Positions 28,569 through 60,943 of a DNA stretch of 64,000 bases are shown one piece after another (position 1 is the stretch's first letter; every line of letters begins with the position of its first letter). The position numbers and the translations under genes were made by a program. Origin of the DNA: Cymodocea nodosa (lineage: Eukaryota; Streptophyta; Magnoliopsida; Alismatales; Cymodoceaceae); the NCBI GenBank assembly GCA_036874045.1, contig CM072341.1:7390501-7454500 (forward strand), read 5' to 3'. The notes beneath the pieces are model-generated. The model was not told where the DNA came from. It saw only the letters and a list, made by a program, of their open reading frames with translations, and did not search any database.

Positions 28569-29082
28569 AAATTAAGAAAAACGTTTTCTTGGTACCCAAT
28601 GTTGTTGAGGACCAAGTTCATTAAACGCATATTTATTCTTTTTGTTTAAAAATAGTTTAACATTATCATTTATATTCTTATTAGTTGTAAGTACTATTGA
28701 TTTATCATTAGCTTCATACTCACATGTAGCATTATTGCTTTTGCAATCATTCTTTTTGTTTTCAGATGTAGTATAATCAAGACCAAACATATTTTTATCA
28801 GATGTTAATTTATTTTGGTCATGATTATACATTTCAGTAAGTTCATACCAAGATTTTGTACTTGTATTAACACTTTCCGTACATACAAAATCTTTTTCTA
28901 CACAAGAATTTTTAGTTTTATCACATGCAGAATGAGTAATTGGTCTAATACTAGTGTATTGAATAACATGCTCAGGTTTCTGAATTTTCAGTTTACTACA
29001 ATTGTTTGAAATTTTAGAAACATTAGAAACTGAATTTCCAGAACAAGAAACAAGATTTTTAGAAACATTTATAGTCATGTTA
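28569..29082 (-). pseudogene. gag: Cop-A gag-pol linker (E1), 3' of the Gyp X insertion
   Basis: Polar linker homologous to E3 15435-15930 (MTINVSKNLVSCSGNSVSN ... KKNKYAFNELGPQQHW). It ends at the Gyp X junction. 29053-29082 (AGATTTTTAGAAACATTTAT...) is repeated at 29100-29129, a 30-bp duplication with a 17-bp spacer right at the joint. About 190 bp of linker seen in E3 is missing across the insertion. Confidence 0.75.
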
Positions 29083-29277
29083 GAAGTGCAATTTGTTGGA
29101 GATTTTTAGAAACATTTATAGTCATGTTATTTCTGAGCTACCAGCACTTTTAAAAGAAAGGAGAATGCGTTGGAGGAACTGAAAGGAGAAGCAGTTGATT
29201 CAACTTCATCCGATAATAAATATTTACTGAATGGAAAGCTTCATACTAGTATGTAATTAATCTTCTGCTATTTATTT

Positions 29278-30619
29278 ATGAGCACATGGACTCGTTCTCT
29301 AAGCACTAAGCGATTAGTAAGAACACCTACCTAGGAATTTTCATTGTAGAGGAGTACTGAAAAATTTTCTAAACTGAACTTTAACGAAATTCTTTGGGGT
29401 GTAGCTAACATTTCTTTAAAAGAGAACGTAGAGATGGTTGCTTTAATAGAAAAATCATTAGGAGAAATTCTGTATCCGGAATTAGTTGATGAACTTTCAT
29501 GTATTCGATTGCCAAACTTTAAGGGAGATAGGTTTGAATTGAAATCTAATTATATTAGTCAATTGCCACATTTTCATGGATTAGAAAGAGAGGATGCCTA
29601 TTATTTCCTTAGAGAATTTAATGAAGTTTGTCAAATGATGAAAATGCCGAACATGAGTATAGATGCTATTAAACTTAGATATATCTCTTTTTCTTTAAAA
29701 GACAGCTAAGAGATGGTTATATACTCTATCGCTTGATTCAATTTCTACATGGACTGAATTTTGCTTTGTTTTTCTGGAAAAATATTATCTAACACATCAA
29801 ACGATTAAAAAGAAGAGAGAAATCTTAATGTGTAGCCAAAAACAAGGTGAATCATTCTGGAAATATTTTGAAAGATTTAAAGATTTATTGACTCAATGTC
29901 CACATCATGCAATGAGTAAAGCACGATTAATAGGTATAATTTATGAAGGCATAGATGTTTCAACAAAATCTTTATTAGAATCTACTTGTCAAAATGGATT
30001 TTTAAAGTTATGTAGGGAAGAAGCATGGGCATATTTAGAAAACTTTGCAAAAAGAACTGCACAGTGGGAAAATTCGGCTGAAGCTATTGCAGATAAAAAA
30101 ATTTTGCCAAGAGGAATGCATGAAATAGATTCAAGTACTATGCTTGAGGTGAAATTAAATGAATTAACAAAGAAAATAGAAGAGTTATCATTAAATCAAA
30201 AGCTAGCAAAACAGAATGCAAACATAAATGATTTAGATATTATTTATGCTAGAAACCAGAGAGATAACTTGGGAAATTCTTATAATCATAATTAGAGAAA
30301 TCACCCGAATTTATCTTGGAGAAACAACAATTTCTAGGGAGGAGAAAATATGAATGAGAAGAATATAAGTTATGAAGCATTACTGGAACAAGGATCTAGA
30401 ATAGAGAAATTAGAAAAGATAATCCAACAATTAAACAATCGTCTAGATTTTGTATTTGGAAGTGGTGCAATTCAAAATCAGAATAGAAATATACCACTTA
30501 GACAGAAGGAACCAATAGAAGGTAGACCTACTAGAGGATTGCCAATACAAGCTATACCTAATCCTGTCAATAGAACGGTCAATGAAATTGATATCTCTTT
30601 TGGGAGGATAGCTGAATGA
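29278..30619 (+). pseudogene. gag: Gyp gag capsid gene (copy X)
   Basis: ATG at 29278. The Ty3/gypsy Retrotrans_gag fold is recognisable: IRLPNFKGDRFELKSNYISQ, YYFLREFNEVCQMM, IKLRYISFSLKD, then GESFWKYFERFKDLLTQCPH, LIGIIYEGIDVSTKSL and EEAWAYLENFAKRTAQW. The C-terminal part has RNHPNLSWRNNN, known from Athila gag ends, and a coiled coil. No CCHC knuckle follows; a knuckle-like motif is instead at the start of the Z pol ORF. Damage: TAG at 29332 and 29347, frameshift near 29703, stops at 30294 and 30334. It lies upstream of an LTR, not downstream of one. Confidence 0.8.
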
Positions 30620-31013
30620 AGTATGAGCTTATTATTATGGATTCATATTTTCAGTAAATGATAGAAACAGGACTATATGAGATTGGTGTTTTACTTCATC
30701 TGTATTAATGAAATACGTACATATACAGTATGTGATTAATGCTTTGTTTTGTGTGTATTTTGATTGAAAAAAAAGAAGAAGAAAAAGAAAGAAAAAGAGA
30801 AAAAAATTGAGAGTTTATTGACTTGTTTGATCACGAGCCTTTTGTACTTAAGTAGATAGGTATGCAAGGATTGTTGACTTGAAAAAGGACTCTTGAAATC
30901 TGGCAACCTAAGATCCTGATCAGATCTGGGATTGTTGATTGAAAGCTCGTTACATGGGTACATTAGAAAGCTCTTGTATGATTCAAGCTTGTCAAATTAA
31001 CTTTTAAAGTATG

Positions 31014-31055
<42 letters not shown>

Positions 31056-31514
31056 CTATTCTGAAAAGATACAAGTGTTTTGTGAAATTCAGATATCTTA
31101 TGAATCGAGTATATTTTCTGTTATCTAGAATTGCTGTAATATGAATCTAGAATTGACTTTTGAAGTTGTTTTAATGGAGATACAATTCTTTATTCTACTT
31201 GTCTTAATCATATTGAATCGGATTGTACTTTGATTTGTATGTTGTTGAAATTTCTTCTAGAAATCTTATTGGGAAATTCAGGATGGTAGATGATGAAAAG
31301 AAGAACAAACGATAATATAATTAACACTTATGTGATAATGATATACTTTGTATGTAATTGGCATATATTCTAAGTATATTAGCAGGTTGATTACTTAAAC
31401 ATACAAAATATATATTTTTATGTTGAATAGAAGAAAAAAAGAAGAAGAGGAATTAACTCTAGCAATTTTTGAAAGACCAATTAATTAGATCTTAGTTTGC
31501 TAAGGTACTAGCAA
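30620..31514 (+). repeat. Gyp 3' spacer (copy X) with AT microsatellite
   Basis: No gene. Joins directly to the end of gag; the F-box-like gene and first purine tract seen in Y are deleted. 30815-31000 is nearly the same as Gyp Y 43098-43290 and the Cop-A module 26820-27000. A purine run (GAAGAAGAAAAAGAAAG) lies at 30774-30806 and a pure (AT)n tract at 31018-31049. Confidence 0.75.
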
Positions 31515-31533
31515 AATTTAGGTATGGGGGAAG
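31515..31533 (+). other. Polypurine tract of Gyp X
   Basis: AATTTAGGTATGGGGGAAG followed at once by LTR start TGTTTAGAATG. The preceding CTAGCAAAATTTAGG is common before the tract in plant Athila-like elements. Y has the same at 42597-42615. Confidence 0.8.
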
Positions 31534-33524
31534 TGTTTAGAATGAAAAAGTGCATATTATTAACAGTTAAATGATGGTTAATTGTATAATATTTAGCTTA
31601 TCATATGAGAATTAAGCCATTATGTTATAATTGCACTGTTATATACTTTAATTGAAGAATCTGCTTAATTTTGGGGAATTAATGTCAATTTAGTACATTT
31701 CTAAACTGTCGGTAAGTTGCAAGCTATGAAATTCTTAAGTATCCGAATTTTCTGATATTTCGGATAGTTATGTTTAACAGACCGAACATGTCGGATAGTT
31801 ATGTTTATATTGCCGAACAGTTATGTTTTGAAAGAATATTTTATTATTTCCAGAAGTACATGCATCGAAACCATAATGCATGACTTAAGTGAACTTTCGG
31901 TGAGTTATCTCTAACTATCCGAAATTGCAACTGAGCATCAGATAGTTAGACCTGTAACTCTCCGAAATGTGTATTTTATTATTAAACTACTGCTGACACG
32001 TGTCGAGATTTGGTAGATTTACTTAAGTTATATATTGGTGAGTTAGTTGTAACTATCCGAAATGCATCTGAGCGTCGGATAGTTAAGTTTATAAGTATCT
32101 GAAATGTACCTGAGCATCGGATAGTTAAATTTATGCACGTGTTTTATAGTTAAATCAACGAAGAAAGTCCATTGAGTTATCTATAACTCCACGGACTATT
32201 TATTTTCTAATATGCCACTGTAGCGGTTGCAGAAACAGGACAGTTGGAAAGAAAACCACGATTGCATGTAATACGCAAGGAGAAGAAATCATTGCCGTTG
32301 ATATGAATGAAGAAAATCCAACCGATCATTCAAGCAGAAGCAGTTACTATTGAAGAAATATAAAAGAAAAGAAGAAAAAGAAGTGGGTGTGATCGATGGA
32401 CGGTAAGTGTGTACAAAGGAGGAGCACCAAGCTTTCTACAGGTAGTATCAGCAATTCTCCAAAGTACCACACCAACCATTGTTACCACCACCATAATCAC
32501 CAACCATCGGAGGTCTGTGAGAATACTTTCTTGATGTCGGGTCGATTCCGAGCCAAATATAGTGCCTGACAACCACTGTGAGGAGTGATGGTATCGCAGG
32601 AAGGGAAGCCATTTTCACCAAGTGCCGACTCATATTTCAAGAGATCGTAAAGTTTTTAGCCTTGGCTTCAGGTTAATGCCTGTATGCTAAAGAGAAGATT
32701 ACTTGCAATTCTGGACTCGCGATTCTATAGGGAGAGGAGACAGAATTGTAAGTGGTTTAATTTTCAGTGGTGTAATCGCGTTGCAAGTAGTGTCGGAAGT
32801 ATTTATTGTCGAGTGAGATTACTTTACATTTCACCTTTCGCCCATTTCCAAGTTCATATTAAAACAAAAATACCAAAAACAATTTATCTATGTTTGTATG
32901 TTGTATTTGAGTGTTGTGTTGTTTGTGTTGTATCGTGATTAATGTTATCTTTGTTAGTGTTGTGATTGTTTTATGTTTGTTTTAGTTTTACAGTTTACTA
33001 AAATTGGTTTGTTCAAAAGGCCTAAAGATTTTAATGGTTACTGTTTGAATTATCTGAATATTAGTATTGCTTAATGATAAATCCAGTTTTTACTAACATT
33101 AAATCGCTTAATTGATGTTATTTACAATCTGTGGAATCGCCCAATGGTTGGCCGAATTCATCTGTAAATAGCACTACTAAAAAGAAAAGACAATCTCGCG
33201 GAGTTAACTTAAGTCCATGAGGTTAGTCCGTTGAGTTAGCCATAACTCAACGAACTTTATCCGTTGAGTTAACTGTAATTCAACGAAGAGCTTATTGAAT
33301 ATATAAATTTGATTGTTAACAAACGGACAGTTCTAAACTTTTCAGCAATTCCTTGTGGGATCGACCTGTACTTGCACACTAATACAATAGACACTATGCA
33401 CTTGCAGTTAAAGTACAAATTGGAATTAATTTCTAAATTGTATTAAATGTTGTTTGTTTACTTCTAAAAGAAAGAATAGGCATAAAGATAAATTAACTAA
33501 GTAAAAACAGAAGTAACAAATCCA
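31534..33524 (+). repeat. Gyp LTR (copy X, 1991 bp)
   Basis: Starts TGTTTAGAATGAAA after the purine tract and ends TCCA seven bases before the primer site. U3 holds several TCGGATAGTTA / TAACTATCCGAAA motifs (31740-32110). A less AT-rich block lies at 32220-32700. The end carries the palindromes TCCGTTGAGTTA...TAACTCAACGAA (33195-33300) and GGGATCGACCTGTACTTGCAC, an Athila LTR landmark. The ~130-bp segment shared by Gyp Y and Cop-A LTRs is missing at about 32127. Confidence 0.85.
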
Positions 33525-33532
33525 AGTTTTTC

Positions 33533-33550
33533 TGGTGTAGTGCTGGGAAA
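33533..33550 (+). other. Primer-binding site of Gyp X, tRNA-Asp type
   Basis: TGGTGTAGTGCTGGGAAA after spacer AGTTTTTC resembles TGGCGCCGTTGCCGGGGA with one base lost and mostly C-to-T/G-to-A changes. It marks the end of the LTR. Sequence returns to Cop-A gag at 33567. Confidence 0.6.
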
Positions 33551-33566
33551 ACACAAACAACACCAC

Positions 33567-35122
33567 AGGGGTACTAGTTAGTTTGTCTAACTTAGTTTGA
33601 CTTAAATTCCATTTCTCAATGGTAGAATTTAAATCTAGCACTCCCAATTTTAATTTATCTATCTCTAATTCAAGTTCATTTATATTGTTTCTCAACATTT
33701 CATTTTCAGATTCTATCTTTAATTTTTCAGCATTTATATTCTGTATTTGTTCATACAAGACACATTCATTAAATCTAAATTTATGCAAATCTCTAGCATG
33801 ATTTTCATTATCACATTTAAACTTTTCTAAAGTAGTAGACAGGAAACAATTTTCTTCTTCCACAATGGATGAAGATTTTCTAATATTCTTATTTTCCTGT
33901 TTACAAACTTTAAGTTTTTGTAATAACGCATGATAAATACATAATAATTCATCAAAGTTGAAATCTGAATGACTTTCAGTATCAGATATTACCTTAGACT
34001 CATCTGCCATGAAGCACACATGAGCAACATCTTCTAACTCTTGTTCTTCTTTTGAATGTGAAGATTTTGATGATAATTCCTTAGATTCAGACTCTTCAAA
34101 CGTGTCATCCCAAGTGACCTTCAAAGCCTTTTTCTTGTAAAACTTTTTCTGAGTTTTTTGAGCCGTCTTCTTCTGATTTGTCCTACTATGCTTTTCATTT
34201 TTTCTTATAGGACAATCTGGAGAAAGATGTCCAAGTTTCTTACAGTTGTAACATACATACTTTCTAGATGAAGAAGTCTTGTCATTCAGTGATTTTGACA
34301 TTGAGCGTTTATCATTTTTGTTCTTTTGCTGTTTCCTAGCTTTCCATGCTTTCTTGAATTTCTTAGTCAGCAAAATCAAATCCTCGTCAGAATCAGTAGA
34401 TATTTCAGAATCTAAATTAATTTCGAATGTTATTTCTTTCTTCATTTTTGGTTTATTTTGACTTAGTGATTCATTTAATTGAACTTCATAAGGTGTTAAA
34501 TTTCCTATAAGTTCATTCATGGTATAAAAAGTTCATTCATGGTATAAACATTTAAATCTCGTGATTCCTCAATTGATGTTACTTTTTGAGACCATTTAGA
34601 ACTTAGGGATCTGAGAATTTTCCTTACCAAATCCTTCTGTTCAAAATTCTTTCCTAAGCATTTTAAAGAGTTTATAATATCAAGAAATCTGGAAAACATC
34701 TCAGAAATACTTTCGTCTTCATGCATCTTAAAGAGTTCATACTTATGAATCAACATGTTTATTTTAGTCTCTTTAACTTGAGAAGTACCTTCATGTGAAA
34801 CTTCTAATGCATGCCACACCTCATAAGCAGATTTATAAGCCGACACTTTACTGAATTGTTCATAATTCAATGCACAAAATAAAATATTTAAGCCCTTAGC
34901 ATTCAGAGTTTCATTTTCTTTTTCAGTAATTGTCTAAGAATTATAAGGGGTAGATAACGAAGTATATGGTTTAGAAATCATGAACCACAACTTATGATCT
35001 ATACTTTGAAGAAAAATAGTCATCCTATATTTCCAATATTCAAAATGTATTCCATCAAATAAAGGAGGACGATTAAGATTTTAGCCTTCATATAAAGAAA
35101 AATTACCATTTTCAGTAGCCAT
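33567..35122 (-). pseudogene. gag: Cop-A gag (E1): capsid, CCHC knuckle, coiled coil
   Basis: ATG at 35122-35120 opens MATENGNFSLYEG; then FDGIHFEYWKYRMTIFLQSI, ALNYEQFSKVSAYKSAYEVW and the UBN2-type capsid part ESISEMFSRFLDIINSL, RKILRSLSSKW. One CX2CX4HX4C knuckle is intact: CYNCKKLGHLSPDC (34260-34210). Then basic (KKFYKKKALKVTWDD), acidic, and coiled-coil parts. Stops: Gln-to-stop TAA near 35083, TAA near 34935, and a 20-bp tandem duplication (34511-34530 repeated at 34531-34550) that shifts the frame. Gyp X interrupts it at 33566. Confidence 0.85.
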
Positions 35123-35307
35123 CTTACTTTAGATTTTTTAACCTATTTGATTTTAAACAGTCTAAAAACTTTAAAACAACTTGAGCCTTAAATCAAGAAG
35201 GTTAAACGTATGCTCAAATATTAATGTCTGTTTAAAAACAAGGAAGGCAGAATAAGTAATGATATTAAATAAGTTGGTATCGATTTTATATCAAAGATTA
35301 TTAACCT

Positions 35308-35320
35308 AACTCTGATACCA
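35308..35320 (-). other. Primer-binding site of E1, initiator tRNA-Met
   Basis: Minus strand TGGTATCAGAGTT two bases after the 5' LTR end. Matches the plant initiator tRNA-Met primer site TGGTATCAGAGC at 11 of 12. The 185-bp leader to gag (35123-35307) holds no gene. Confidence 0.85.
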
Positions 35321-35322
35321 CT

Positions 35323-37025
35323 TGTAGGATCGTATGACTACACAAGAGAGAGGTGAATTGTGTTTTTTAACTTTTTCCGATTATAATTGAAACTTCAATA
35401 ATTAAAAACAAGTCGAGACACTGTTTTCATAAAATCATTTTTATTTAAGGTTTCAATTACAATATACAATTCAATTCTCCTCAGAAATTGTAGATGCAAT
35501 TATATTTCGATACTATGTTTCATCTATACAATTTCATAACTACAAATAGAGAAAACTAATTTATGGAATTTAAAACATTTCTCCCTGTTTGAGATCTTTC
35601 TTCTTCTTCTTTTTCTTCTTCAGCAATTCTTCAGTGATGAATATATAATCTTTTTCTGCTTCACCAAATTTGCTTTCTTTTGATACTGTAAATCTTCAGT
35701 GACGTATATAATACCTTTTTCTGCTTCACTAAACTTTCTTCCACCTAATACTTCAAATCTTCAACGACATAAATCTGACCTTTTTCTGCTTCATTGAATT
35801 TTCTTCCACCTGATACTTCAAATCTTCAGCGACATAAATCTGACCTTTTTCTGTTTCACTAAATTTTCTTCCACCTAAGAGATTTTCCTTGAAGAGGTGT
35901 TTTTGATCCCTGAAAAGATTTTTCATTTGATGTGCAGGGATAATTTGATCCTTGAAAAGATTTTCGTTTTGTGTGCAAGGATAATTTGATCAACGAGAAT
36001 TCCATACCTTTTATACTGTATCTTTATTTCATACATATCCTCCACATTTAATCACTACCAGTTTTCAACTTCTTCACGTCTTTTTACTTCATCGAAACAC
36101 ACACGTTTTGACTCACGTTTACATTTCGAATTTTCTTTAATCATCAGTCTTGAATCTCTGAAAAATTTCCTGCAGAATAAACTTTCTTGTCCAAAATTTT
36201 TCATTAGTATAATAAGAAGTCGTTACTTTAATGTTAACTAAGCGAGTAACACAAGTAGATATTAACTAAACGTTTCTAACTTAACGAGTTCCTCATGTGC
36301 CATTTCACATGACTAGTAGCTAACTCAATGAACTAAGTTTGTGGTGTTACGCTAACTTAACGAACCATCTCAGTTGTGTTATGATAACTTAACGAACCAA
36401 TAATAAACAAATGTTTTTATAATAAGAATTTTACCACGTGCAAAAATAACAACTTAAGTTTATAACACTAACCTAACGCGTTGCCTTAGTGTTCAATATA
36501 GCAACTCAACGCGTTTAGTTATGTTAACTTAACGAGTTAAACATGTGTACCTCACGTGATACAATATAACATTCGTAACTTATAATTTCACCACGTGTAT
36601 AACACTAACTTAACGAGTTGTCTAAACTTTTACTCAGTAACTTAACGAGTTACCATGTGACCTATTTTAACCTTTAAGCCTCTAACTTAATCAGTTCTCA
36701 TGTGACCTCTATACAAATAGTACTCTAACTTAACAAGTAGTCTTAACGTGCACTATTCATGATATAGAAGATATAACTTTAAAACATATCATGCTTTTCA
36801 ATAAAAAACACACGTTAACTTAACATTTAGTTACATGAGAAATTAATGCAATGAAATGACTAGTTATTTAACAGTATAATTTTAGATCCAATACAGACAA
36901 GTATTTATATCAGTAAACTTTTTCTGTATTCATTGATGATTTTAATTTCTTTTCACAAGCAATAGTAATTGAACAAATTTGATTATTTTCATTTAGCATA
37001 CATCATCAAAACAAAATACTGAACA
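35323..37025 (-). repeat. E1 5' LTR (1703 bp)
   Basis: Minus strand TGTTCAGTATTTTG ... CGATCCTACA, followed by the primer site. It pairs with 19750-21452. Four ~60-bp units lie at 35640-35885; CTAACTTAACGAGTT units at 36600-36700; the segment shared with Gyp LTRs at 36468-36570 (GCGTT, CCTTAGTG, AACTCAACGCG, TAGTTATG, CTTAACGAGTTAAACATGTG). Confidence 0.85.
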
Positions 37026-37644
37026 AAATAGTTGCAGCCCTTGCGTGAATGGAGTTGCCCGAAATGGAGAGATGCCTTGCATGGATGCTCGTGGTCCTTT
37101 TTATTAAGGGTAAGTTTTTATCCAATGGCTAGGATTAATCCAGCCATATATGATTTAAAATCTCCATCCAATGGTGAAGATTAATTCATCTTTTAAGCTC
37201 CAATAGATGCCACCTATTAAAATGAAACTTGGAGAATACTTAGCACATAATAAGAACATAAAATAGATGTAATAAAAATTAATATTAGATCTTGATTTTA
37301 ACCATCAATAAAATGGGACTTATTATTTACATCATGCCAATGATTTCCATTGATAATAATATTCAATTGAAAAGCATATATAACACTTACATCATGCATG
37401 TGTGCAATTGAAATGTGTGATAAATGGTTTATTCCCAACAACTAAGTGTCTACATATGGGCTAGTAACTTGACATTAATTTTATTAAAGGTAAATTTGTG
37501 TATTAATTAAATTTTAATACATAAAAACATGCATAGCCTAAAAATATAGTTTTCATGTAATCTTATATAAATATCATGTGATATGCAATTGAAATCTATA
37601 AAATGCATGCTTTAACATATAATAAAATGCACAAATCTTAACTT
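37026..37644 (-). repeat. Athila-type LTR, right part (resumes after E1)
   Basis: AT-rich, no gene. Taken as the continuation of 18157-19749 because E1 lies between with near-matching flanks (aaaca/aaata). CCAATGG words and a minus-strand CTTAATAAAAAG box near 37110 could be promoter parts. It ends where a Cop-A gag fragment begins. Confidence 0.45.
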
Positions 37645-42615: not shown

Positions 42616-43872
42616 TTGCTAGTCCCTTAGCAAACTAAGATCTAATTAATTGGTCTTTCAAAAAGTGCTAGAATTAATTCCACTTCTTTCTTTTTTTCTG
42701 TTCAGCTTAAAAATATATATTCTGTAAGTTTTAGTAATCAACCTGCAAATATACTTAGAATATATGTCAATTACATACAAAGTATATTATCTTCACATAG
42801 GTGTTAATTATATTATCGTTTGTTCTTCTTTTCATCATCTGCTATCCTGAATTTTCCAATAAGATTTCTAGAAGAATTTTCAACAACATACGAATCAAAG
42901 TACAATCCAATTCAATATAATTAAGACAAGTAGAATAAAGAATTGTATCTCTATTAAAACAACTTCAAAAGTCAATTCTAGATTCATATTACAACAATTC
43001 TAGATAACAGAAAATATACTCAATTCATAAGATATCTATATTTCACAAAATACTTGTATCTTTTAGAATAGTATATGTTTTTTTTTTCGATCTTTAAAAG
43101 TTCATTTGACAAGCTTAAATCATATAGGAGCTTTCTAATGTACCCATGTAACGAGCTTTCAGTCAACAATCCTAGATCTGATCAGGATCTTGGGTTGCCA
43201 GATTTCAAGAGTCCTTTTTCAGGTCAACAATCCTTACATACCTATCTGCTCAAGTACAAAAGGCTCGTGATCAAACAAGTCAATAAACTCTCAAATTTTT
43301 TTTTTTTTTTCTTTTTTCAATCAAAATACACACAAAACAAAACATTAATCATATACTGTATATGTACGTATTTCATTAATACAGATGAAGTAAAACACCA
43401 ATCTCATATAGTCCTGTTTCTATCATTTACTGAAAATATGAATCCATAACAATAAGCTCATACTTTTTCTGTAGTTTAATAAGATCTATACATAAATCAT
43501 TTTACAAGTTTAATCAATCAAATTAAATGTATCTTTAATCATATGCGTTTTATTTACTCTAGAATTCACTTCTCAGCTCCTTCAGGACTTCAGATAATTT
43601 ACTGATTTTTCATTAAGCATTCTGATTTCATTTTAGAATCGTGAAACTGTTAAACTCATGAAATTCAGAAAAATCATAAGATACTATATCTAGATTTGCA
43701 TAAATAATAAATCATATATAGCCTTCTAAATATAACATTCAAGTAGTTACAATTTATAAATTTTACAGTCTCAATTATCAGATAGTTACAGCAAGTTCAT
43801 AAAAATTTTCAATTTCCACAACTTTGCAGTACCATTTTAATTAACAAACTTGCATGGCTGTTACTTTAATTA
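42616..43872 (-). repeat. Gyp spacer module shared with Cop-A
   Basis: No gene. About 1.25 kb between two purine tracts, homologous along its length to the Cop-A pol-to-accessory-ORF spacer (26450-27450, 11220-12200, 2660-3650). The closest part is 43098-43290. Includes a T/A homopolymer at 43296-43320. Confidence 0.8.
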
Positions 43873-45535: not shown

Positions 45536-45600
45536 TATGATACTATTAACTAAAAATAAAAACATATATACATACAGATAGTTGCTTCAGATATGCTGCT

Positions 45601-47806: not shown

Positions 47807-47879
47807 CATGGGCACTTAGGTTATTTGTAAACTTTGTCAAGAAAATTTTTCCCACTTGTTGCTGTTACAACCTACGACG

Positions 47880-50149
47880 AGGGTCTCCAAGTTCTACAAA
47901 GGTCGTGGCAAAGGAAAAGGCAAAAGCAGAGGAGATGCAACAGGAAAAGAAATAGAGAATGATGAAGTTCCACACACTTGGTTCAAGAAAATATTTCGAG
48001 TGGACAAAAGGTTAGTAGAAATTTATAGTGAATATTTCTTTCCTGAAGACATACTAAATGAAGTTAGACAAGAACTCCAAAATACTAATGCAAATATTAC
48101 ATACATGGGTATTCGTAGTAAATTTGATAGAGAATACAGAATGAAATGTGTTGAGATTGCATTTCTCAAGCAGTATGCAAATTATTTGGAAAAATGTATA
48201 GGTTCTTCAACTAGAACTCCTCAAATACCAATAAATGGTATTAGACTACATGCATTTGAGGAAGCACATGAATCAGTTATCCCTACCCCTTTATATTCAA
48301 AACAAGTAGAATCAAATATTGTTGTAGACAAAACAAAAGTTGATAGTCTTCGAAAGGCCGTAGCAATTGAGAGTGCCTTAGAAGAATTAAAGTAGAAAAC
48401 TTTTATGGAGTAAGTTGAAAAGAAACAACAATACTTGAAGAGGAGAAACAGAAATGTTATAGAAGAAGAAAAGTCAGAAAAATTATGTCTAAGGAAACAA
48501 AGTTTATTGAAAAAGAAAAATCAGATGAAAATTTATTTCCAAAGGACAATGTATGTCTAGACTTTGTATCTTATTGTGCATCTGATAAACTCATCAGTTC
48601 CAAACACACTGAAACTGATGAAGATAATGAGACTTTATTTTCCCTTGTTAGAAAGCTTGAGAAGAAATACAAGTCAAATATGAGCTCAAGTTTTTCTATT
48701 TGTACAAGTCCTGATGATACAGAAATTGACAAATCAGAGCATCAAGCACTCGACATTGAACAAGTTATTACAGATATAATTGACAATGTTGAGGCAATAA
48801 CTAGTTCACAGGTTGAATTGTCTGGAGTAGTAGATATTGAAAATGTTAAGACTCTAGAAGAGCTAAAAGTCAACCAGCCTTCTTCAGAATCTATAGAAGC
48901 AGAGTCTGAGAATTCACAGCATGACTCAATGGAAATATCTGTTGAACAAAATGAACAATTACAGACAGATACACTGGCTGTAGAATTTGTGGAAAAATTG
49001 AACTCTGAAGATTCTATAGAGACTGAACATATGAATGTTGAGCATATTGAAGATGTTCCTAACACAGTTGAAGCTGAAGAATCAAGCTTACCTGAGCAGC
49101 TTCAAGATAATATTTTGGAAAAGGAACAACATGACATTCATTTTGAAGAAGAGGTTCCTAAAGATGAATTAAACTCTGAATCACGGCTTCAGGTATCACT
49201 TTCTTTGTGTATAGTATTATGAATTCAAGGTAATTCAATTCATTTTAGATCTGAAGAAGCATTGCAGAAATACTATAATCTGATTACATGTTAGATTCTA
49301 CATGCTCGTCCAATAAAGTTCAGAAGTTTGATGGTAATAAGAGATCTATTTGAGTTTCAAGGCCTCATTCAATTCTTGCCAGTAGGAACGAAATGGAAGC
49401 AATACAGAGAGCTTATTGCAACTTTTTATAGCAATCTTGTCAAGAATGGAAATTTTCTGAAAACTCAAATAAATCAACAGGAGTTTATATTGTCTCCTGA
49501 GTTAATTTTTGAAGTTTTGGGATTAAAGAATGAAGGTGTTGTTGTTACGAACAGATTTGACATGATTAGACAACTGGAATGGAACATTCAGTCTTTATCA
49601 AAAATTCCAGATGTATATTCTGAAATGAGATTAATGGAAAATCTAAAAGCAGAGGCAAGGTTTATTGCAAATATATTGCATGCAAATTTATTTCAGAGAG
49701 TTGGACACAATTTGGAAGTCAGTAGAAGCAGTTTATATGCAACTTATGGCCTACTGAATAGAATTCAAATAAATTGGTTTGATGTTTTTATGTCTCAACT
49801 ACAGCATATGAGTTCAAAGTTATTTTATGGTGATGCTGTATGTAGAATCCTTGCAAGCCAATTGAATTTATCTGACTGGCTCTTTGAAACTAAAGGAATG
49901 AGAGCACTAAGTGTTAAAGATTTGCAAAAATTTCAGGCTATGCATAAACCTCAACGACAATAACAACAACAACCTGATTGTACAGACCATATACAACAAC
50001 AACAACAAAGTTATTCAATTCAAGTAGAACAGCAAACCCAGCTACCTCCTGACTTAGATGTAGTGCTTAACGACATTAGAAATGATATTAGGCATCTAGG
50101 AGATAAAATATGTAATGCTATAAGTGATATACTTAGGAGGGGTCGATAA
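47880..50149 (+). pseudogene. Cop-A accessory ORF, near full length (E2)
   Basis: Most complete copy (about 756 codons). The conserved ATG is changed to AGG at 47880-47882, so the start is lost. Order: basic GRGKGKGKSRGD; conserved YMGIRSKFDREYRMKCVEIA; acidic, Ser/Glu-rich, low-complexity middle (48700-49190); core domain 49240-49940 (IHFRSEEALQKY, LFEFQGLIQFLPVGTKW, ELIATFYSNL, LGLKNEGVVV, ANILHANLFQRVGHN, RIQINWFDVFMSQL, SKLFYGDAVCRIL); Gln-rich linker; C-terminus DLDVVLNDIRNDIRHLG, ISDILRRGR, stop 50147-50149. Stops: TAG 48393, TGA 49220, TAG 49292, TAA near 49961; one frameshift near 48420. The core is homologous to Gyp Z 59141-59834. No signal peptide or membrane segment seen; function unknown. 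Confidence 0.8.
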
Positions 50150-52400: not shown

Positions 52401-53860
52401 GAATTTAAATGCTTTAGTATATCACGTGAGATGCACATGTTTAACTTATTAAGTTAGCATAACTGTACGCGTTGAGTTACATGAATACACACTAAGGTAA
52501 CACGTTATGTTAGTAGCTTATTTCTTTATTACACGTGTTTTATAGTTAAATCAATGAAGTAAGTCCGTTGAGTTATCTGTAACTCCATGAACCATTTATT
52601 TTCTAATATGCTACTGTAGCAGTTACAAAAACAGGACATTCGAAGGAAAACCATGATTGCACGTATCACATAGGAATTCGCTCCTAGAAGGAAGAAGAAA
52701 TCACCATCGTTGATATGAATGAAGGAAATCCAACCGATCATCTAAGCAGAAGCAGTTACTATTGAAAGAAATATAAAAGAAGAGGAGAAAGACGAACAAA
52801 GGGTGGTGGGCAGTGTGTGTAGAGGTGGAGGACTGTGCTAACTTCAGGTAGTGTTGGAAGTTCCCTGAAGCTCCACACCACCACCATAATCACCAACCAT
52901 CGGAGGTCTGTGAGGATACTTTCTTGATGTCGGGTCAATTTTGAGCCAAACATGGTGCTTGACAACCACTGTGAGGAGTGATCGCGTCGCGAGAAGGAGG
53001 AGATCATCTTACAATTTTGGACTCGCAATTCTATAAGAAGAGGAGGCAAGATTGTAAGTGATTAAGTTTTCAATGGTGTAATCATGTCGCATGTAGTGAT
53101 GGAAGTATTTACTATTGATAGAGATTTTTACATTTCACCTTTCATTCATCTTCAAGAACATATCAAAACAAAAATACCAAAAACAACAAATTATCTATGT
53201 TTACATTTAGTATTTAAGTGTTGTATTGTTTGTTTGGTATCATGATTAATGTTACCATTGTCAGTATTGTGAGTGTTTTATGTTTGTTTGATTTAGAAAA
53301 TAAAAAATAGCTTTACAATTTACTGAAATTGATTTGTTCTAGATACTTAAAGATTTTAATGGTTACTTTTTGAAATATCTGTTTGTTAGTGTTGCTTAAT
53401 GATAAATCTAATATTAACTAACATTGAATAGCTTAATTGATGTTATTTACAATCTATGGAACTACCCAATGGTTGGCCGAATTCCTATGTAAATAGCAGT
53501 ATTTAACTAGAAAGATAGGCTCGTGGAGTTAACTTAAGTCCACGAGGTTAGTTTGTTGAGTTAATCATAACTCCACGAACTAGGTCCGTTGTGTTAACTG
53601 TAACTCAACAAAGTGCTTACTGAACACATATACCCCAATATAAAATTCAGAATAGTACACAATTCTTACTCAATCTCTATGGGATCGACTTGTACTTGCA
53701 CACAAATACAATATACACTGTGCACTTGTAGTTAAAATACAAATTGGAATTAATATCTAATTTGTGTGAAAGGTTGTTAGTTTACTTCTAAAAGTAATTA
53801 TTGATATAAGCATAAAGACAAATTAAATAAGTAAAAACAGAAGTTAACAAACCCCAAACA
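52401..53860 (+). repeat. Gyp LTR (copy Z, 3' two-thirds)
   Basis: Begins within U3 in the segment shared with Cop-A LTRs (52417-52515), continues with the same less AT-rich block as X and Y (52600-53050), palindromes at 53515-53612, GGGATCGACTTGTACTTGCAC near 53690 and the end CAAACA at 53860. No gene. Confidence 0.8.
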
Positions 53861-53867
53861 AGTTTTC

Positions 53868-53885
53868 TGACATCGTTACTAGGGA
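53868..53885 (+). other. Primer-binding site of Gyp Z, decayed
   Basis: TGACATCGTTACTAGGGA matches the Athila primer site TGGCGCCGTTGCCGGGGA at 12 of 18; all six differences are G-to-A or C-to-T. Spacer AGTTTTC from the LTR end is as in X. Confidence 0.7.
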
Positions 53886-53964: not shown

Positions 53965-55866
53965 ATGGCATATGCTTATGCTCAAAGATTTCTGAAACCT
54001 GTAGTTAGCATATGTGAATTCTACAATTTAGAAGGTCATGACATCTTTGATTGTTTAAAACTAAGACGGTTGAAGATGGTTAGATCATATGAACAACAAA
54101 TGAATTATCTTCAATATAATAGAGTTGAGTATGAGAATCCTATTGTTTACCCAACTAATGGTCAGTATAGAATGTGTAATATGTTGAGAGACAAGGAAGT
54201 TTGGGATAGGTATGACAGACTAGACCGTAGCTTAGAGCAAAACATAGACAAACTGGAACAATACATGTGGCAGCAACGAGAAATCAACCAATTAAATTAT
54301 AGAGAAGAATATTCAGAACCTAAAATTGATATCATTTACGAAACTAAAAAAACCATAATGAAAATTGATCAAAAATTGAATGCAATGAGATTAGATAATT
54401 TGGAAAGAAAATTAAAAGCATTGGACGAATATACAATTAAATTACAAGTTATGCAATAGGACAACACAAATGAAAACTTTAATGTTACAGATTTACATAA
54501 TTTGAAAGATATATAGAGAAAAGAAAATACAAATGTAATAGAATTTAAAGAATGCAATTTAAAACTAAAAATAGTTGAAGATCATAATCACGAAAATGAA
54601 ATACAAGAACATCATGAAAGTAACGAAAATCTGGAAGATGTATGTTTAACATTAAGATCTGGAACTAATATACCACCAAGAATTCAAAAAGAAAGTAATA
54701 TGAAGGTGGATAAGAGCAAAAATCGAAATGATAATGAAAATGTAATATCTGAAAACATAGAAATCAATGAAGAAAAATCTGAATCTGAAAATGAGACTAA
54801 AAATGATCAAACAAATCAAATGAAAGAAAAAGAATCTTTTAAATCACAATCATTAGCACCTTATCTTGAAAGATTACAACAAATATTTTTTGAAAAACAA
54901 GAAAAAATTAGAGAAATTTTTGAAAAAGTACAAGTTAACATTCCTTTGTTAGACTTATTATAGAAAATGCCACCTTGTGCTAAATTTTTTAAGGATTGGT
55001 GTACTAAGAAAAGAGAGCGAAAAGTTTTAAGGAAAGTCTTTTTAGCTGAGCAAAGTAGTTCCTTATTTCTACCACAAATTCCTAAAAAGTTATCTGATCC
55101 TGGAATTTCTGTTATATCATGCACCATAGGAAATACCATTCTAGAAAGAACCTTAATAGACCTAAGTGCAGGTATAAATGTTATGCTGAGTGATATATTT
55201 GCATCCTTAGGATTAGAATGCTTAATCCCTACTAGGTCTGTTATTCAATTAGCTGATAGAAGTATAAAATACCCAAGAGGAAAAATAGAGGATGTCCTAA
55301 TTAAAATCAAAAACTTCATATATCCTATAGATATTGTAATTTTGGATTCCCAACAAATTAAGCATAAAAATTGTGATACATCTTTAATTTTGGGAAGACC
55401 ATTCTTAGCAACATCAATGAGTGTTATAAATTGTAAAACTAGAGTAATGAAGTTAGCATATGGTAATGAAGATACTCAATTAAACTTTTTCAACCTAGAA
55501 AAGTTTGAGGAGTTAGAAATGTCCTTACATACTATAGACTTTTTAGAGGATGAAGGAGATATTCTAGATGATGTAATTAAAGAAGAACTAAATAGGCAAC
55601 TAAATTCTGAAAATTTAGGAGAAAGTGAAAGTATAAATATAGAAGGAGATTAAGAAGATATTAATATAGAAAATGAAAATGTTCAATTAGGAGCTCTAGC
55701 TTCTAATGAGCAACATTTAGATTTAAAACCTTTACCTCCTGAATTAACCTATATATTTCTGAAAGAAAAACGAACATGTCCAATCATTATTGCTTCAGAT
55801 TTAAAAGAGGATCAAATTGCTAAATTAAAAGATGTAGTAAAAACTTATAAAGAAGCAATAGGATGG
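53965..55866 (+). pseudogene. pol: Gyp pol N-terminus: knuckle-like motif, coiled coil, protease
   Basis: ATG at 53965, the first after the primer site. Residues 14-30 read ISICEFYNLEGHDIFDC-like: a CX2CX4HX4C knuckle in which the second Cys is Tyr (a G-to-A change). A Gln/Glu/Lys-rich coiled coil follows (54160-54460), then FEKVQVNIPLLDLL and the aspartic protease: TLIDLSAGINVML near 55155 (DLGAS in relatives), ADRSIKYPRGKIEDVL, DTSLILGRPFLATS near 55380. Stops at 54457, 54514, 54961 and 55651 break the frame. No capsid domain precedes it; capsid is coded at 60944. Confidence 0.75.
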
Positions 55867-56372
55867 ACTATGACTAATATAAAAGGGTTAAGTGCAACTT
55901 TATGCTGTCACCACATATATTTAGAAGAGAATGCTAAACCAGTTAGAATTCCTAAGAGGAGATTAAATCCAAACCTTAAAGAAGTAGTCAAGAAGGAAAT
56001 AGTGAAATGGTTAGATAATGACATAATTTATCCGATTTGTGATAGCTCATGGGTTAGTCCAATCCATGTAGTTCCCAAGAAATCAAGATTAACAATTATT
56101 AGGAATGAAAGTTAGGACTTGATACCTACTAGAAATCAATCATGTTGGAGAGTGTGTATAGACTATAGAAAGTTGAATACTGTGACTAGGAAAGATCATT
56201 TTCCCTTACCTTTTATAGATCAAATGCTAGAGAAATTAGTAGGGCAAGAATATTTTTGTTTCCTAGACGGGTATTTAGGATATAACCAAGTCCTAGTAGC
56301 ATTAGAGGATCAAGAGAAAACAATTTTCGCCTATCCTAATGGAACTTATGCTTTTAAGAGAATGTTAGTGAT
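55867..56372 (+). pseudogene. pol: Gyp reverse transcriptase, N-terminal half
   Basis: Athila RT motifs: HHIYLEENAKPVRIPKRRLN, YPICDSSWVSPIHVVPKK, stop at 56113, then CWRVCIDYRKLNTVTRKDHF, PLPFIDQMLEKLVGQEYFCF, LDGYLGYNQV and YPNGTYAFKRM. It ends by deletion at about 56372, so the YVDD/FMDD box, the rest of RT and RNase H are gone. Confidence 0.85.
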
Positions 56373-57081
56373 AGAGGAACTCATTTCTGTAATAGAAGTT
56401 TTGAAGCCTTAATGAAGAAATATGAAATAAATCACAAAATTGCAACATCATATCATCTGTAAACAAGTAGATAGTGCAAACAAACAAATTAAGTTAATCT
56501 TAGAAAAAGTAGTAAATCCTACTAGAAAAGATTGGGCTAATAGATTAATAGATGAACTTTGGGCTTATAGAATTGCTTATAAGACAAGCTTAGGTATGTC
56601 ACCTTTTAAGCTAGTATATGGAAAAAGTTGTCATTTACCAACTAAAATTGAACATAAAGCTTATTGGGCATTAAAAACTCTAAACACTAATTTAAATCAA
56701 GCTATTGAAAATAGGAAAATGCAATTGATTGAATTAGAAGAATTTAGGAATGAAGCTTATTCAAAGACTGTAAGAGAAAAAGAGAAAATGAAGTTCTGGC
56801 ATGACAAGAAAATTATTTCAAAAACCTTTGAAATAGGACAAGAAGTATATCTTTACATGACTAGACTCCATAACCATCTAGGAAAATTAAGATCTAGATG
56901 GGCAGGACCTTACATAATTCAAAATATTTATTCCTATGGAGCTATTGAAATTGAAAATCCTAAAAATCAGAATATATTTAAAGTAAATGGACAAAGACTT
57001 AGACCTATTTTGAAAATACCAAAAAGTTCCTTTAGAATTATAGAAGAAGTAAGAGTAGAGGACTACTCGAGCTTTACTTAG
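56373..57081 (+). pseudogene. pol: Gyp integrase C-terminal half
   Basis: Begins GTHFCNRSFEALMKKYEINH (frame shifted and stopped near 56405 and 56460), then VDSANKQIKLILEKVVNPTR. Asp stands where relatives have the catalytic Glu of VELANREIK. RIAYKTSLGMSPFKLVYGKS, HKAYWALKTLN, KMKFWHDKKI and the C-terminal GPYIIQNIYSYGAIEI, VNGQRLRPIL follow; stop after SSFT at 57081. The HHCC domain and first two catalytic Asp are lost in the RT-to-IN deletion. Confidence 0.85.
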
Positions 57082-57738
57082 TAAAAATTATCTAAGTGTT
57101 TGTTTTGTTAAAAAAGAAAAAGAAAAAAAAGGATATTTAAACATAATCACGGTACAACCGAAAGGAATTATCGGTTTTACCGAAACATATAAAAAAAAAA
57201 AAATTGTTGCGGTTCAACCAAGGAATATAATGGTTTGACTGAAATTCTTCAGTCTTGACCTTGAATTATTGCGATAATTTTGGTGCAACCGAGGAATATA
57301 ACGGTTTGACCAAAATTTTAAAATGTTGAAAAATTAAGAGTCGGTTAGATCGGAAATTCTTCGGCCTTGACTGAAGTAAAAATTATTATTATAGTATTTT
57401 TATTAGATATAACTTTACGGAAAGTTCATTGAGTTACGCTTAACTCAACGAACTTACTCCATTGAGTCTAGGATAAGTTAACGAATTTACCCTGTTGAGT
57501 TAACTATAACTCAATGGAGTATTGTAGTTAAGTTCACGAACTTAGTTTGTGGAGTTAACCGTAATTCCATGGAGAGGTAGATGAGAGAGCGAGAGTTTGC
57601 ATGGGAAAATGACCCGATTACCTGCTTAAACTTAGGGCTTATTTATACTAAACTTAGGGTTTGGGGGCATTATTTGCAAAATCAATTAGAACTTAAAATA
57701 GTAGAGATCAGAGCAATTCTGTTCCATTTTGTAACTCC
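57082..57738 (+). promoter_or_regulatory. Repeat and palindrome block before the Gyp accessory ORF
   Basis: No gene. 57150-57337 has three loose copies of GGT(N)CAACC..GGAATATAA(Y)GGTTTGAC. 57424-57553 has TTGAGTTA palindromes; the best has 13-bp arms at 57424-57436 and 57441-57453 (one mismatch). The same palindromes precede gag and the F-box-like gene. Confidence 0.5.
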
Positions 57739-59963
57739 ATGATGAAAAAGATGACATCAGAATTCTAGGAGGAAGCAATTGACACGACAAGATTTCTTAA
57801 AGAATCGGAAGAGTGGCATATGAGGCAGAAGATCAGAAATACAACACGGGAAAAAGAACTACAAAAGTTAGAATCTAACCTTTTCTACTAGAGAAAAGTT
57901 TTAGTGGATTTAGGCATACAAATACCTCAGATTATGGAAACGAGAATCAGAGTAGCTACAGAAGTTGCATTAAATAGAGAGAGAAAAATCAGACCAAATA
58001 ATGAAGTTGCCCTAGAATTGATCCAACGTAAGTCCTGACTATGGTTCAAAAGACGCATAGGAGGACATGCACGATGGGCAATCTGGGAGCAATAGAGGAA
58101 AGGAGCTAAGGAATATGTAATTGAAGAACAAGAGGAACCGACTATTGAAAGACCTGTCCCTGAGGAATAGCAGCTAGGGGACCTTCAGTCCTGCCAATAG
58201 AGCCATTACCATGAACAACATTTGTTTGGCCGAGAACTGAAGAAGAAGATAAAAAGTTTGCTAGCTTGGTCAAAATAGTAAAAGACCAAGGAGATAATGA
58301 AGAATTGGCTATGGCTAAGGCACATATTCTGTATGATGCCATAAAGAGAAGGTAGGTAGAAGAAAAGTTGAAGGCCTAATATAAAATTAAAGTTAAATAG
58401 CATCAAGAAGCCACTACCATACCTACTGCAAAAGAAACTAAAGCTAGTCCTTCGAGACCAGTAATTATAGAAAAAGTTAAACAAAAAGAGCCAGTACCTG
58501 TGGCTTGAGGGCTTGCAGAGCCTATTTTTGTAGATTTAATCTTAGAAGAAGAAGAGGAAGACCAAACACAATTAATTAGAAAAAGGAAAAGAAAAGAGAT
58601 AGTGTCTAAACATCAAGAAGAGATTAAATCTGAGATGCAAATATTAGTAGGGCCTATAGAGCCGATTTTTGTAGACCTGCTATCCAATTCTGAGGATGAG
58701 TATGAGCAACAGCAGCAAGAGCAAAGAGAAGAAGAAAATCAAGCTAAAAATAATCTACAGCCTGTACAAATAGAAATTAGGGTAGAAGATGATTTGTCCG
58801 TAACTCCATCCCAATCTGCCATAGAATCAGAAAGAATAGTGGCAATGCAGATTGGTAGTCAGGAGGAAGAAGAAAAAGAAGAAATTGAACAAGAAAGGAA
58901 TGACTCGATAGATTCCACTGAAGAGGGAGAAACTCTTCAGCAATTAATTGAAAGAATTCAAGATAGAGTGGAGAGTTCTGCCAGCTCACCACCACAGACA
59001 GAAGTAGAAGCAAAAATGTAGGAATCTCTAGAGCATTCCCAGCCAATTCAAGTTTAACACATGGAAGAGGAAGTTCAAGAACAAACCCCTTTAGAGCAAC
59101 AAATTCAAATTCCTGACCCGATTGAAGCAACAGTTTTGAATGAAATACACTTTTGGAGTCAGGGAGCATATAATAAATATCAAGAGATTAAGGGTTATGA
59201 TATCATTTACAGTAGACTAGTAAACTAGGACGGGATGCAAGAAATTAAGGATTTATTTGAGTTCCAAGGTCTACTACAATTTATATCTCAGTAGAGAGGG
59301 CATGCAGTATATGAGAATCTAGTACTCTGCTTCTATGCAAATTTAAGAGAAGGAGAAAGTGGATTAATTTTCAATGTGGAGCAAGTTGATGTATAGACAA
59401 CACTAGAGCTTCTCCACAACATTTTATGTTTGAAGAATGAAGGAATAGAAATTCTGGAAAGTACAACAGTAGTCGAGTGGACAGAACAAATAATAAAGGA
59501 TTGTTTAGCTATCAATCCTGGTGTGCCATTATTAAATAGACTGAAGCACTTAAATGGTAAAGCACACATGATAGCTAATATTTTGATTAAGAATGTCTAC
59601 CAACGACAAGGCCATGATATTGAACTGAGTCAATTTGTCAAGTGGGCCACATATGCAGTTGTGAATAAGATTCAAGTTAATTGGTCTACAGTTTTTATCT
59701 CCAAGTTAAGAGCAGTAAAGAAGAAACTATTTTATGGAGATCTGATTCCACTATTAATGGTGGACAATATTGATTTCACGAAATGGGCATCCAAAAGAAT
59801 AAGATCAAGAACCATTTCAGTGAAAGAATACTAAAATTATGCAGCTGCTGAGATTATTGAATCTTCTAGAGGCATTACAGGAGCTGTAGAGAGGATAAAT
59901 CAATTAGAATAATAATTAGAAAAACTCTAGAAGGAAGTAGATGAACTTAGGAAGAAAGAGTAA
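57739..59963 (+). pseudogene. Gyp accessory ORF with the same core domain as Cop-A
   Basis: ATG 57739, stop TAA 59961-59963, about 740 codons with many stops. N-terminal half is helical and charged (EVALNRERKIRPNNEVALEL, RRIGGHARWAIWEQ); the middle is Glu/Gln-rich, low complexity (58500-59020). Core 59141-59834: IHFWSQGAYNKYQEI, DLFEFQGLLQF, LVLCFYANL, LCLKNEGIEI, MIANILIKNVYQRQGHD, ATYAVVNKIQVNWSTVF, KKLFYGDL, SRTISVKEY. These match, in order, the Cop-A core at 49240-49940. A coiled-coil tail (INQLE..LEKL..EVDELRKKE) replaces the Gln-rich Cop-A tail. Order basic/charged - acidic - core is also shared. Function unknown; position after IN is where Athila elements have an env-like ORF, but no membrane segment is seen. 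Confidence 0.75.
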
Positions 59964-60943
59964 ATTATATCGTTCGTCTACTTGTACTTATATTTGTATG
60001 AAAAATATCTGATTGATTGTAATGTAAACTATTCATATAAATGAAAGTATGTTTTTTAGATGTATTTTTCATTAGTGTTTGAGAATGATATAATAGAGAA
60101 CTATCTTGAATATTATATAATTATTTAAACAATGAGCAAAACTGTTTAAAAGATTTACAAATTTGCTGAATGATAGGATTAAATGCATGATAATTGGTTA
60201 ATGCTGGAATATATCTACATTCTGAAAAGTAAAATGTAAATTCTGCATAATAGGAAATGAACTGCAAGTTAAATATGCATAAAATGTTTAGATTTAAATG
60301 AGTTTTATTTAGAACACAGCATTAATGACATGTAGTTAACTTTATTTAAGTTGACAAAATGCAGTAGAAGAAAAAATATATAGAAGTTAATACGAGGAGT
60401 AAGCTTTAGAAATTTGCTAAGTGCTAACTCAATAGAGTAAGTTTGTTGAGTTAACGTTAACTCTACAAGGTCAATAATATAATATAAGGTCACTCCGTTG
60501 AGTTATCTATAACTCAATGAAGTTAGTCCGTGGAGTTAGCAACAGTAACTGAAGCTAGTCCGTTGAGTTAACTATAACTCAACAAGGTTAGTTTGTAGAT
60601 TAAGCTAAACGATTATTCTTTTAGCCACGAACGAAACTTTGTGGGTTTAGCGGTTACTGAAATTAGAAGTGGAACACGTATCCATAAAAATAGGAATCAC
60701 ACTACATGTTACAAGACACGTTCTTGCAACGAGATTCATTTGCTTTATAGACGTGCATTATAAATATAGAATAGAATGTTATTTACGAGTTACCAGCACT
60801 TTTAAAAGAAAAGGAAATTTGTTGGGGAATTGGAAGGAGAAGCAGCTGATTCAACTTCATCCGTCAACAACTATTTACTGAATATAAAGCTTCAGCCTGG
60901 TATGTAATTAATCTTCTGTTATTTTACTTTATGTTAAGAGTTT
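59964..60943 (+). promoter_or_regulatory. Promoter-like region before Gyp gag (Z)
   Basis: No gene. Palindromes at 60438-60470, 60494-60520 and 60559-60587 (TCCGTTGAGTTA..TAACTCAA), inverted repeat around TTCTTGCAACG near 60715, TATAAATA at 60759-60766, gag ATG 178 bp beyond. Copy Y has the same order of parts; copy X begins 24 bp after the TATA position. Confidence 0.5.

Follow-up and report, generated by a model that had tools for sequence, protein, structure and literature searches.

Open reading frames (ORFs) behind pol have long been known in the SIRE and Athila retrotransposons, where they are called env-like (PMC3414828). The origin of such env-like genes in plant retrotransposons has been described as unknown (PMC3414828). 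Extra ORFs form numerous groups that resemble one another little (Neumann et al. 2019, PMC6317226), and in soybean and its relatives the env-like proteins of the Athila group are little alike in primary sequence, Calypso and Cyclops-2 excepted (PMC1142308). In bdelloid rotifers, the sharing of ORF3 types between retroelement classes has been read as exchange (PMC5408684), and in Sireviruses the palindromic motifs found in the long terminal repeats (LTRs) and 5' of the env-like gene have been seen as hinting at an internal promoter (PMC2829016). The literature that we searched, with supplements and most full texts outside it, yielded no statement that the SIRE and Athila accessory proteins are homologous. 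Here we describe two related accessory ORFs in 64,000 nucleotides of Cymodocea nodosa DNA (contig CM072341.1, positions 7,390,501 to 7,454,500; the whole stretch is called the window), one in a Ty3/gypsy element, GypZ, and the other in a Ty1/copia family, Cop-A. As judged from sequence, one old accessory gene most likely lies downstream of pol in both this SIRE-type copia family and this Athila-like gypsy family. This one 64-kb window is the evidence base for all the results below, and GypZ is known from a single copy.

Results

The GypZ and Cop-A accessory ORFs share a homologous core

The first-pass annotation of this locus had proposed that the two accessory ORFs share a run of motifs, and these motifs are indeed present, in the proposed order and at the proposed places. 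We compared all 945 stop-to-stop ORF segments of at least 30 amino acids in the window with each other by BLASTP, keeping the pieces of the GypZ core, which is split at in-frame stops, separate both here and in the Smith-Waterman comparisons with Cop-A. The pair formed by GypZ 59397-59831 (+) and Cop-A 49295-49960 (+) was found with 94 bits and E 3e-27 among the 945 segments, which identifies the run of motifs as a homologous core; a single BLASTP of the pair gave 94.4 bits and E 2e-29, with 48 of 141 residues identical (34%) in an ungapped alignment. The second Cop-A copy (24542-25369, minus strand) matched the GypZ core with E 7e-21, and the GypZ piece 59058-59225 matched the Cop-A ORF 49295-49960 with E 2.7e-4, both among the 945 segments. 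For all segments inside 53800-60300, matches at E up to 1e-3 were to the two Cop-A accessory copies only. The Smith-Waterman score of GypZ with Cop-A was 241, whereas the best of 1000 shuffles scored 69. When the GypZ pieces were aligned with the copy at 24542-25369, those at 59058-59225 (IHF.S..A..KY), 59229-59291 (LFEFQGL) and 59397-59831 exceeded all 1000 shuffles; the piece at 59295-59393 (FY.NL) was reached by 20 of 1000 shuffles, though its alignment is in register, and the C-terminal piece at 59835-59909 by 275 of 1000. The N-terminal parts of the two accessory ORFs had no match in the all-against-all comparison. At the level of sequence, the two cores are confirmed as true homologues, beyond chance.

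The layout around the core is also alike. The acidic middle that the first-pass annotation had seen in both ORFs is present (net charges in Table 1), and the shared core is basic in both, with a net charge of +8 in Cop-A and +7 in GypZ. Both accessory ORFs lie behind pol, as had been noted before, with like position and sense; in GypZ, the ORF has the sense of pol and begins about 660 bp behind it.

The identity between the GypZ and Cop-A cores is 45, 64 and 35% at the first, second and third codon positions and the silent distance is saturated, so the relationship of the cores is old and is seen at the level of protein. The Cop-A copies are 94% identical to each other in DNA over 153 codons (dN 0.045, dS 0.129). 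Deep protein divergence and saturated silent sites would also fit an accessory gene that predates the separation of Ty1/copia and Ty3/gypsy, but such vertical inheritance is extremely improbable: within copia, Sireviruses are the one genus described as frequently having such a gene (PMC3414828), and on general knowledge 34% protein identity, like the 72% non-coding identity described below, seems far too high for so old a split.

A nested Cop-A fragment in GypZ is unlikely because the third codon positions are only 35% identical, the silent sites are saturated, and the GypZ segment yielded no Cop-A LTR, polypurine tract (PPT) or pol, in agreement with the earlier remark that this segment has no Cop-A flanks. 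The region 57082-60270 had no DNA similarity to any Cop-A copy at the thresholds used, short LTR-type boxes excepted. The GypZ segment might instead derive from a diverged SIRE-type copia element, distinct from Cop-A, whose nested remnant came by chance to lie behind the gypsy integrase. That the window is full of nested insertions, that no gypsy 3' LTR was found closing GypZ, and that the accessory region begins in a different frame would fit such a remnant. We nevertheless regard it as improbable, since the accessory ORF shares the orientation of pol at a short distance, no Cop-A LTR, PPT or pol match surrounds it, the preceding linker carries gypsy-type palindromic boxes, and a sunflower Athila element has a sense 3' ORF that is partly PF20167-like (PMC11728184).

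The cores belong to elements of two superfamilies

The assignment of the two families to different superfamilies in the first-pass annotation was borne out. Pieces of two Cop-A copies matched the copia-type Pfam families RVT_2 (E 7e-56), rve (5e-11) and Retrotran_gag_2 (1e-27) above the cut-off. The piece at 27515-28330, which had no Pfam match, is taken by us to be RNase H from its resemblance. Directly before the Cop-A LTRs lies the PPT AAAAAGGGGGAGATTGTT (of the AAAAGGGGGAGATTG type), with 3 exact matches in the window against 0.10 expected; at up to 3 mismatches, a SIRE-type PPT occurs at 3 places in the window, all of them at Cop-A LTRs. The primer-binding site (PBS) TGGTATCAGAG (tRNA-Met) is found behind the Cop-A 5' LTR at 35306-35320, and 17 of 100 shuffles matched it somewhere within 2 mismatches. 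We assume that a PPT of the AAAAGGGGGAGATTG type and a tRNA-Met PBS are marks of the SIRE lineage. The Cop-A copy at 47606-52400 (+) is internally deleted: the first 200 bp of its LTR are joined straight to the accessory region, which is followed by the 3' LTR.

In GypZ, the reverse transcriptase (RT) piece at 56116-56409 matched the solved Ty3 RT structures 4ol8 (E 5.7e-14) and 7q5b (2.7e-13) in the PDB; its score with Pfam RVT_1, 26.2 bits, is under the cut-off of 29.6. The GypZ pol lacks a part between its RT and integrase pieces (near 56412-56431), and no RNase H piece was found in GypZ. The protease and integrase parts had no Pfam match above the cut-off and are presumed to be such from their resemblance, as is the assignment of GypZ to the Athila clade. 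The degenerate pattern for a tRNA-Asp PBS, whose consensus we presume, has 2 matches in the window against 0.09 expected, one behind the GypZ 5' LTR and the second at 18133-18150 (-). The 1.4-kb repeat at 52532-53854 was also considered as a second copia LTR and rejected, for a tRNA-Asp-type PBS stands behind it and the PPT-like tracts before its relatives have what we take to be a gypsy look.

Three-frame translation showed that the GypZ ORF is interrupted by several in-frame stops and changes frame around 58190-58260, which makes it a pseudogene; the Cop-A copies are damaged as well. In the GypZ accessory frames (57739-58190 and 58263-59963) there are 11 TAG, 6 TAA and 2 TGA stops (19, natural end included), compared with 101, 99 and 81 in all six frames. 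The excess of TAG fits a decay of methylated CAG to TAG (CHG deamination), which is suggestive only.

The accessory protein resembles a soluble protein more than an envelope

A likeness to the 'putative plant transposon protein' domain had been suggested for both cores. It holds in weak form for Cop-A: its core matched Pfam PF20167 (Transposase_32) with 23.5 bits and E 5.8e-5 over profile positions 16-147 of 177, and the second copy with 19.2 bits and E 0.0012, neither reaching the gathering cut-off of 45 bits. The GypZ core had no direct match to PF20167. Because GypZ can be chained through the weak match of Cop-A, both cores are probably distant relatives of this family. Sequence relatives of the core were not found in the PDB (best E 0.49), nor in 125 candidates searched for plant relatives with the Cop-A core as the query. 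With an alignment of three sequences as the query, 1 of 4631 candidates matched, a 115-residue fragment from a 745-bp ENA contig that matches Cop-A at 93% identity across 44% of the query and is thus too close to Cop-A to help. In viral contigs, the protein pattern had 4 matches, of which 0 were confirmed.

Hydropathy was averaged over 19 residues in the readable accessory pieces of at least 30 amino acids, with a transmembrane threshold that we take to be 1.6; pieces under 30 amino acids and 58190-58508 were outside the test. No window of transmembrane grade was present in any of the 10 pieces, and the highest mean was 1.18. Together with the acidic middle and the basic core, this absence suggests that the accessory protein is better explained as soluble, and perhaps associated with nucleic acids, than as an envelope protein. 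A true envelope-like gene, serving cell-to-cell or horizontal transfer, would agree with the position behind pol and with the name env-like given to such ORFs in the literature (PMC7264820, PMC3414828), but the charged layout and the lack of any transmembrane-level window make it very improbable. The shared core also argues against an envelope function of the domain described here.

Copia and gypsy elements share non-coding DNA

A region of about 1 kb, which we call X, is common to the Cop-A linker between RNase H and the accessory ORF and to gypsy elements of the LTR-Z family, to which the 5' LTR of GypZ itself belongs. The two versions are 72% identical over 992 columns (E 3e-130), in an alignment with many indels (the coding capacity of X was considered). 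Columns 501-700 are 87-91% identical across the families, compared with 89-95% within them, and outside these columns the identity across families falls to 55-81%. The core of X (43070-43300, minus strand, and the matching Cop-A stretches) is conserved between copia and gypsy nearly as well as within families. A 44-bp piece of it has 5 copies in the window at up to 3 mismatches, 3 in Cop-A and 2 in gypsy elements; a 20-base piece had no match in viral contigs. The PPT-like tract TTTAGGTATGGGGGAAG between X and LTR-Z has 2 exact matches in the window; chance would give 0.23 matches at 3 mismatches, and at least 2 were present in 4 of 100 shuffles. The LTRs also share a segment (Table 1), which in another copy extends over 186 bp at 71.5% identity.

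A repeated box, CGTTGAGTTA, marks the same elements. The motif was initially chosen by eye. When the 619 9-mers that make up the GypZ pol-accessory linker were ranked by their joint enrichment in two LTRs, one copia and one gypsy, CGTTGAGTT was first and the half-site GTTGAGTTA second. Half-sites were counted with one mismatch allowed on both strands, and regions of the window were compared with the expected numbers. The window holds 149, against 17-34 in 20 shuffles. They are concentrated in the five Cop-A LTRs (64 in 8506 bp, 3.5 expected), the three LTR-Z copies (27 in 5676 bp, 2.3 expected) and the GypZ linker (5 in 657 bp, 0.3 expected). Further concentrations stand in front of an F-box ORF (7 in 366 bp), upstream of gag in the gag-bearing gypsy elements described below (16 in 1464 bp) and, in Cop-A, in the linker that follows the accessory ORF (8 in 1371 bp). 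They are rare in Cop-A gag-pol (2) and in the Cop-A accessory ORF (1), and none lies in GypZ gag-pol or its accessory ORF. Palindromic pairs number 39, two sharing a start, compared with 0 or 1 in 20 shuffles; 38 of them lie in an LTR, a pre-gag region or a linker and the remaining one about 60 bp before a Cop-A PPT. Units of 32-33 bp that contain the box are arrayed in tandem in two of the Cop-A LTRs and, in two gypsy elements, ahead of gag. Two Cop-A units compared with two gypsy units, one gypsy unit in both orientations, scored above all 300 shuffles in all 6 comparisons.

Whether both families captured the gene or one received it from the other had been left as a pair of alternatives. For the protein alone, both still stand; because non-coding modules are shared, transfer is favoured over parallel capture, and we infer that exchange is the likely route. 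Independent capture, in which each lineage took the domain from a common pool of host genes or DNA transposons (PF20167) with no transfer between retroelements, is rather unlikely. It would draw on the name of PF20167 as a transposon protein, which Cop-A matches weakly, on the F-box domain carried by a neighbouring gag-bearing element, and on the heterogeneity of extra ORFs, which has been read as independent acquisition from several sources or, for SIRE, as very fast evolution (PMC6317226). Under such capture, however, the like relative position, the common layout of acidic middle and basic core, the shared non-coding DNA and the LTR boxes would be unexpected.

Gag-bearing gypsy elements beside GypZ

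The window is made up of nested LTR retrotransposons, with numerous copies on either strand, and the types of element suggest plant DNA. Two gag-bearing gypsy elements, at 44279-47605 (-) and 60270-63440 (+), matched Retrotrans_gag above the cut-off; no pol was seen in either, and the plus copy runs towards the end of the window. Downstream of gag, the minus copy contains an F-box domain (PF00646, E 8.7e-10, 44899-45402), with a DNA-similar region in the plus copy, and just before the F-box region stand palindromic boxes and a splice-like junction (CAG followed by AATC). Most likely, a non-autonomous element has here taken up a gene of its host. A shorter relative at 29124-33523 (+), nested in the Cop-A element at 22248-37026, has no F-box region, and its gag is joined directly to X and LTR-Z. 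The pre-gag regions at 60270-61000 (+) and 46873-47605 (-) carry boxes, and the relatives of these elements end in LTR-Z. The plus-copy region 60270-61000 had no match to LTR-Z except the boxes and may be an LTR or a leader.

Table 1. Positions of the principal features in the window
Feature	Position	Strand	Remarks
GypZ element	52401 to about 60000	+	LTR, PBS, RT piece, integrase C-terminal part, accessory ORF
GypZ 5' LTR, family LTR-Z	52401..53867	+	Start lost at Cop-A copy; 78-79% DNA identity to 32136-33523 and 40379-41890
PBS, tRNA-Asp type, decayed	53868..53885	+	Differs from the presumed consensus by C>T / G>A only (transitions)
GypZ pol remnant	54964..57081	+	Protease-like part, RT part, integrase C-terminal part (ends 57081)
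GypZ pol-accessory linker	57082..57738	+	5 GTTGAGTTA half-sites; palindromic boxes 57428-57449 and 57494-57515 among them
GypZ accessory ORF region, pseudogene	57739..59963	+	N-terminal part in frame of 57739, remainder in frame of 57741
GypZ acidic low-complexity middle	58509..59018	+	Net charge -29
GypZ shared core	59058..59831	+	Stop-broken pieces 59058-59225, 59229-59291, 59295-59393, 59397-59831
Cop-A element	22248..37026	-	3' LTR 22248-23831, 5' LTR 35320-37026; nested insert about 29106-33559
Cop-A accessory N-terminal and acidic middle parts	47820..49222	+	Net charge +5 (N-terminal), -37 (middle)
Cop-A shared core	49295..49963	+	
Cop-A second copy, end of middle part and core	24539..25369	-	
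Region X in Cop-A linker (RNase H to accessory ORF)	2665..3609	-	Other copies 11231-12013 and 26446-27240, both -
Region X upstream of gypsy PPT and LTR-Z	42742..43706	-	Second copy 30619-31386 (+)
PPT-like TTTAGGTATGGGGGAAG	42597-42613 (-), 31517-31533 (+)		Between X and LTR-Z
LTR-Z segment	52408..52513	+	106 bp, 79% identical to Cop-A LTR 7068-7173 (-)
32-bp repeat array with CGTTGAGTTA box	60494..60582	+	Pre-gag region of neighbouring gypsy element
Related repeat unit in Cop-A LTRs	23131-23211, 20748-20828		

Discussion

On balance, we favour modular exchange between the superfamilies as the best overall reading of the accessory gene, the linker and the LTR modules. Retroelements of the two superfamilies that shared a host would have exchanged modules, either by template switching between co-expressed RNAs or by recombination of nested copies. 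The domain would have split long ago, as the saturated silent sites suggest, and a further, probably later, exchange may have moved the linker segment X and the LTR segments with the repeated CGTTGAGTTA box. The accessory gene would likely be expressed separately from gag-pol, and an internal promoter marked by the upstream boxes is plausible, if a little short of probable. Its product, with an acidic middle and a basic conserved core, would be a soluble protein. That it acts as a nuclear factor recognizing its own element, perhaps through the boxes, and so aids expression or escape from silencing, is a doubtful proposal, with box binding and nuclear entry both putative. A trans/cis module common to copia and gypsy, in which the factor recognizes CGTTGAGTTA boxes in the LTRs and before the accessory gene, is less likely still. 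If it were true, elements of different superfamilies, and the gag-only non-autonomous ones, would depend on one another's protein for activation or for shelter from silencing.

Several observations weigh against modular exchange and the proposed role of the boxes. Since GypZ is one degenerate copy and no PPT or 3' LTR was found behind its accessory ORF, the unity of this ORF with the element rests on collinearity. Region X was not found in GypZ itself. It stands before the accessory ORF in the Cop-A linker and next to LTR-Z in the gypsy elements; X and the domain therefore need not have moved together. The gypsy boxes are not specific to the accessory gene, because they also precede the F-box ORF. 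Copies within one family are not independent in the box counts, enrichment is no more than mild in the Cop-A linker upstream of the accessory ORF (7 half-sites in 4035 bp against 1.6 expected), and the rest of the window holds 11 against 5.5 expected. The half-sites in the Cop-A LTRs are mostly in a single orientation and form poorer palindromes than the gypsy ones. An RNA structure for the core of X was rejected: single folds had z of -2.4 and -1.8 relative to shuffles, with a covariation term of +0.88 and 1 of 66 pairs compensatory. Rfam had no match in the window at the gathering threshold, nor in 42500-44000 at E up to 5.

Even so, the homologous core and the shared linker and LTR modules point to exchange between superfamilies, and the question of where env-like genes come from becomes testable by phylogeny, binding and promoter assays.

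Cop-A resembles the elements with the SIRE/Sirevirus 'ENV-like' ORF (eORF-3'F) in its PPT, PBS, RT type and ORF position, and the difference is that the core is recognizable here in a gypsy element. Likewise, GypZ resembles elements with the Athila 'env-like' sense 3' ORF in having a sense ORF behind pol. The aORF(+) of sunflower Athila 14 has partial similarity to PF20167, whereas GypZ has no direct match to that family, and the accessible part of that report mentions no copia relative (PMC11728184). As in the Sirevirus RM, palindromic boxes occur here in the LTRs and 5' of the env-like gene, clearly in the gypsy LTRs and the GypZ linker and more weakly in Cop-A; the sequence differs (CGTTGAGTTA), the central CGG-CCG is present in 0 of the 39 palindromes, and the better palindromes are in the gypsy elements. 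The closest precedent for the event itself is the ORF3 types of bdelloid rotifers, where one type of accessory ORF likewise occurs across retroelement classes, the LTR and the Penelope-like retroelements (PMC5408684); those cases concern animals and other types of protein, and the present one concerns plant copia and gypsy elements and includes non-coding modules. Because the rotifers provide an established case of accessory ORFs common to different retroelement classes, this kind of event is already known; the plant copia-gypsy case with shared non-coding modules is new as far as the literature was searched.

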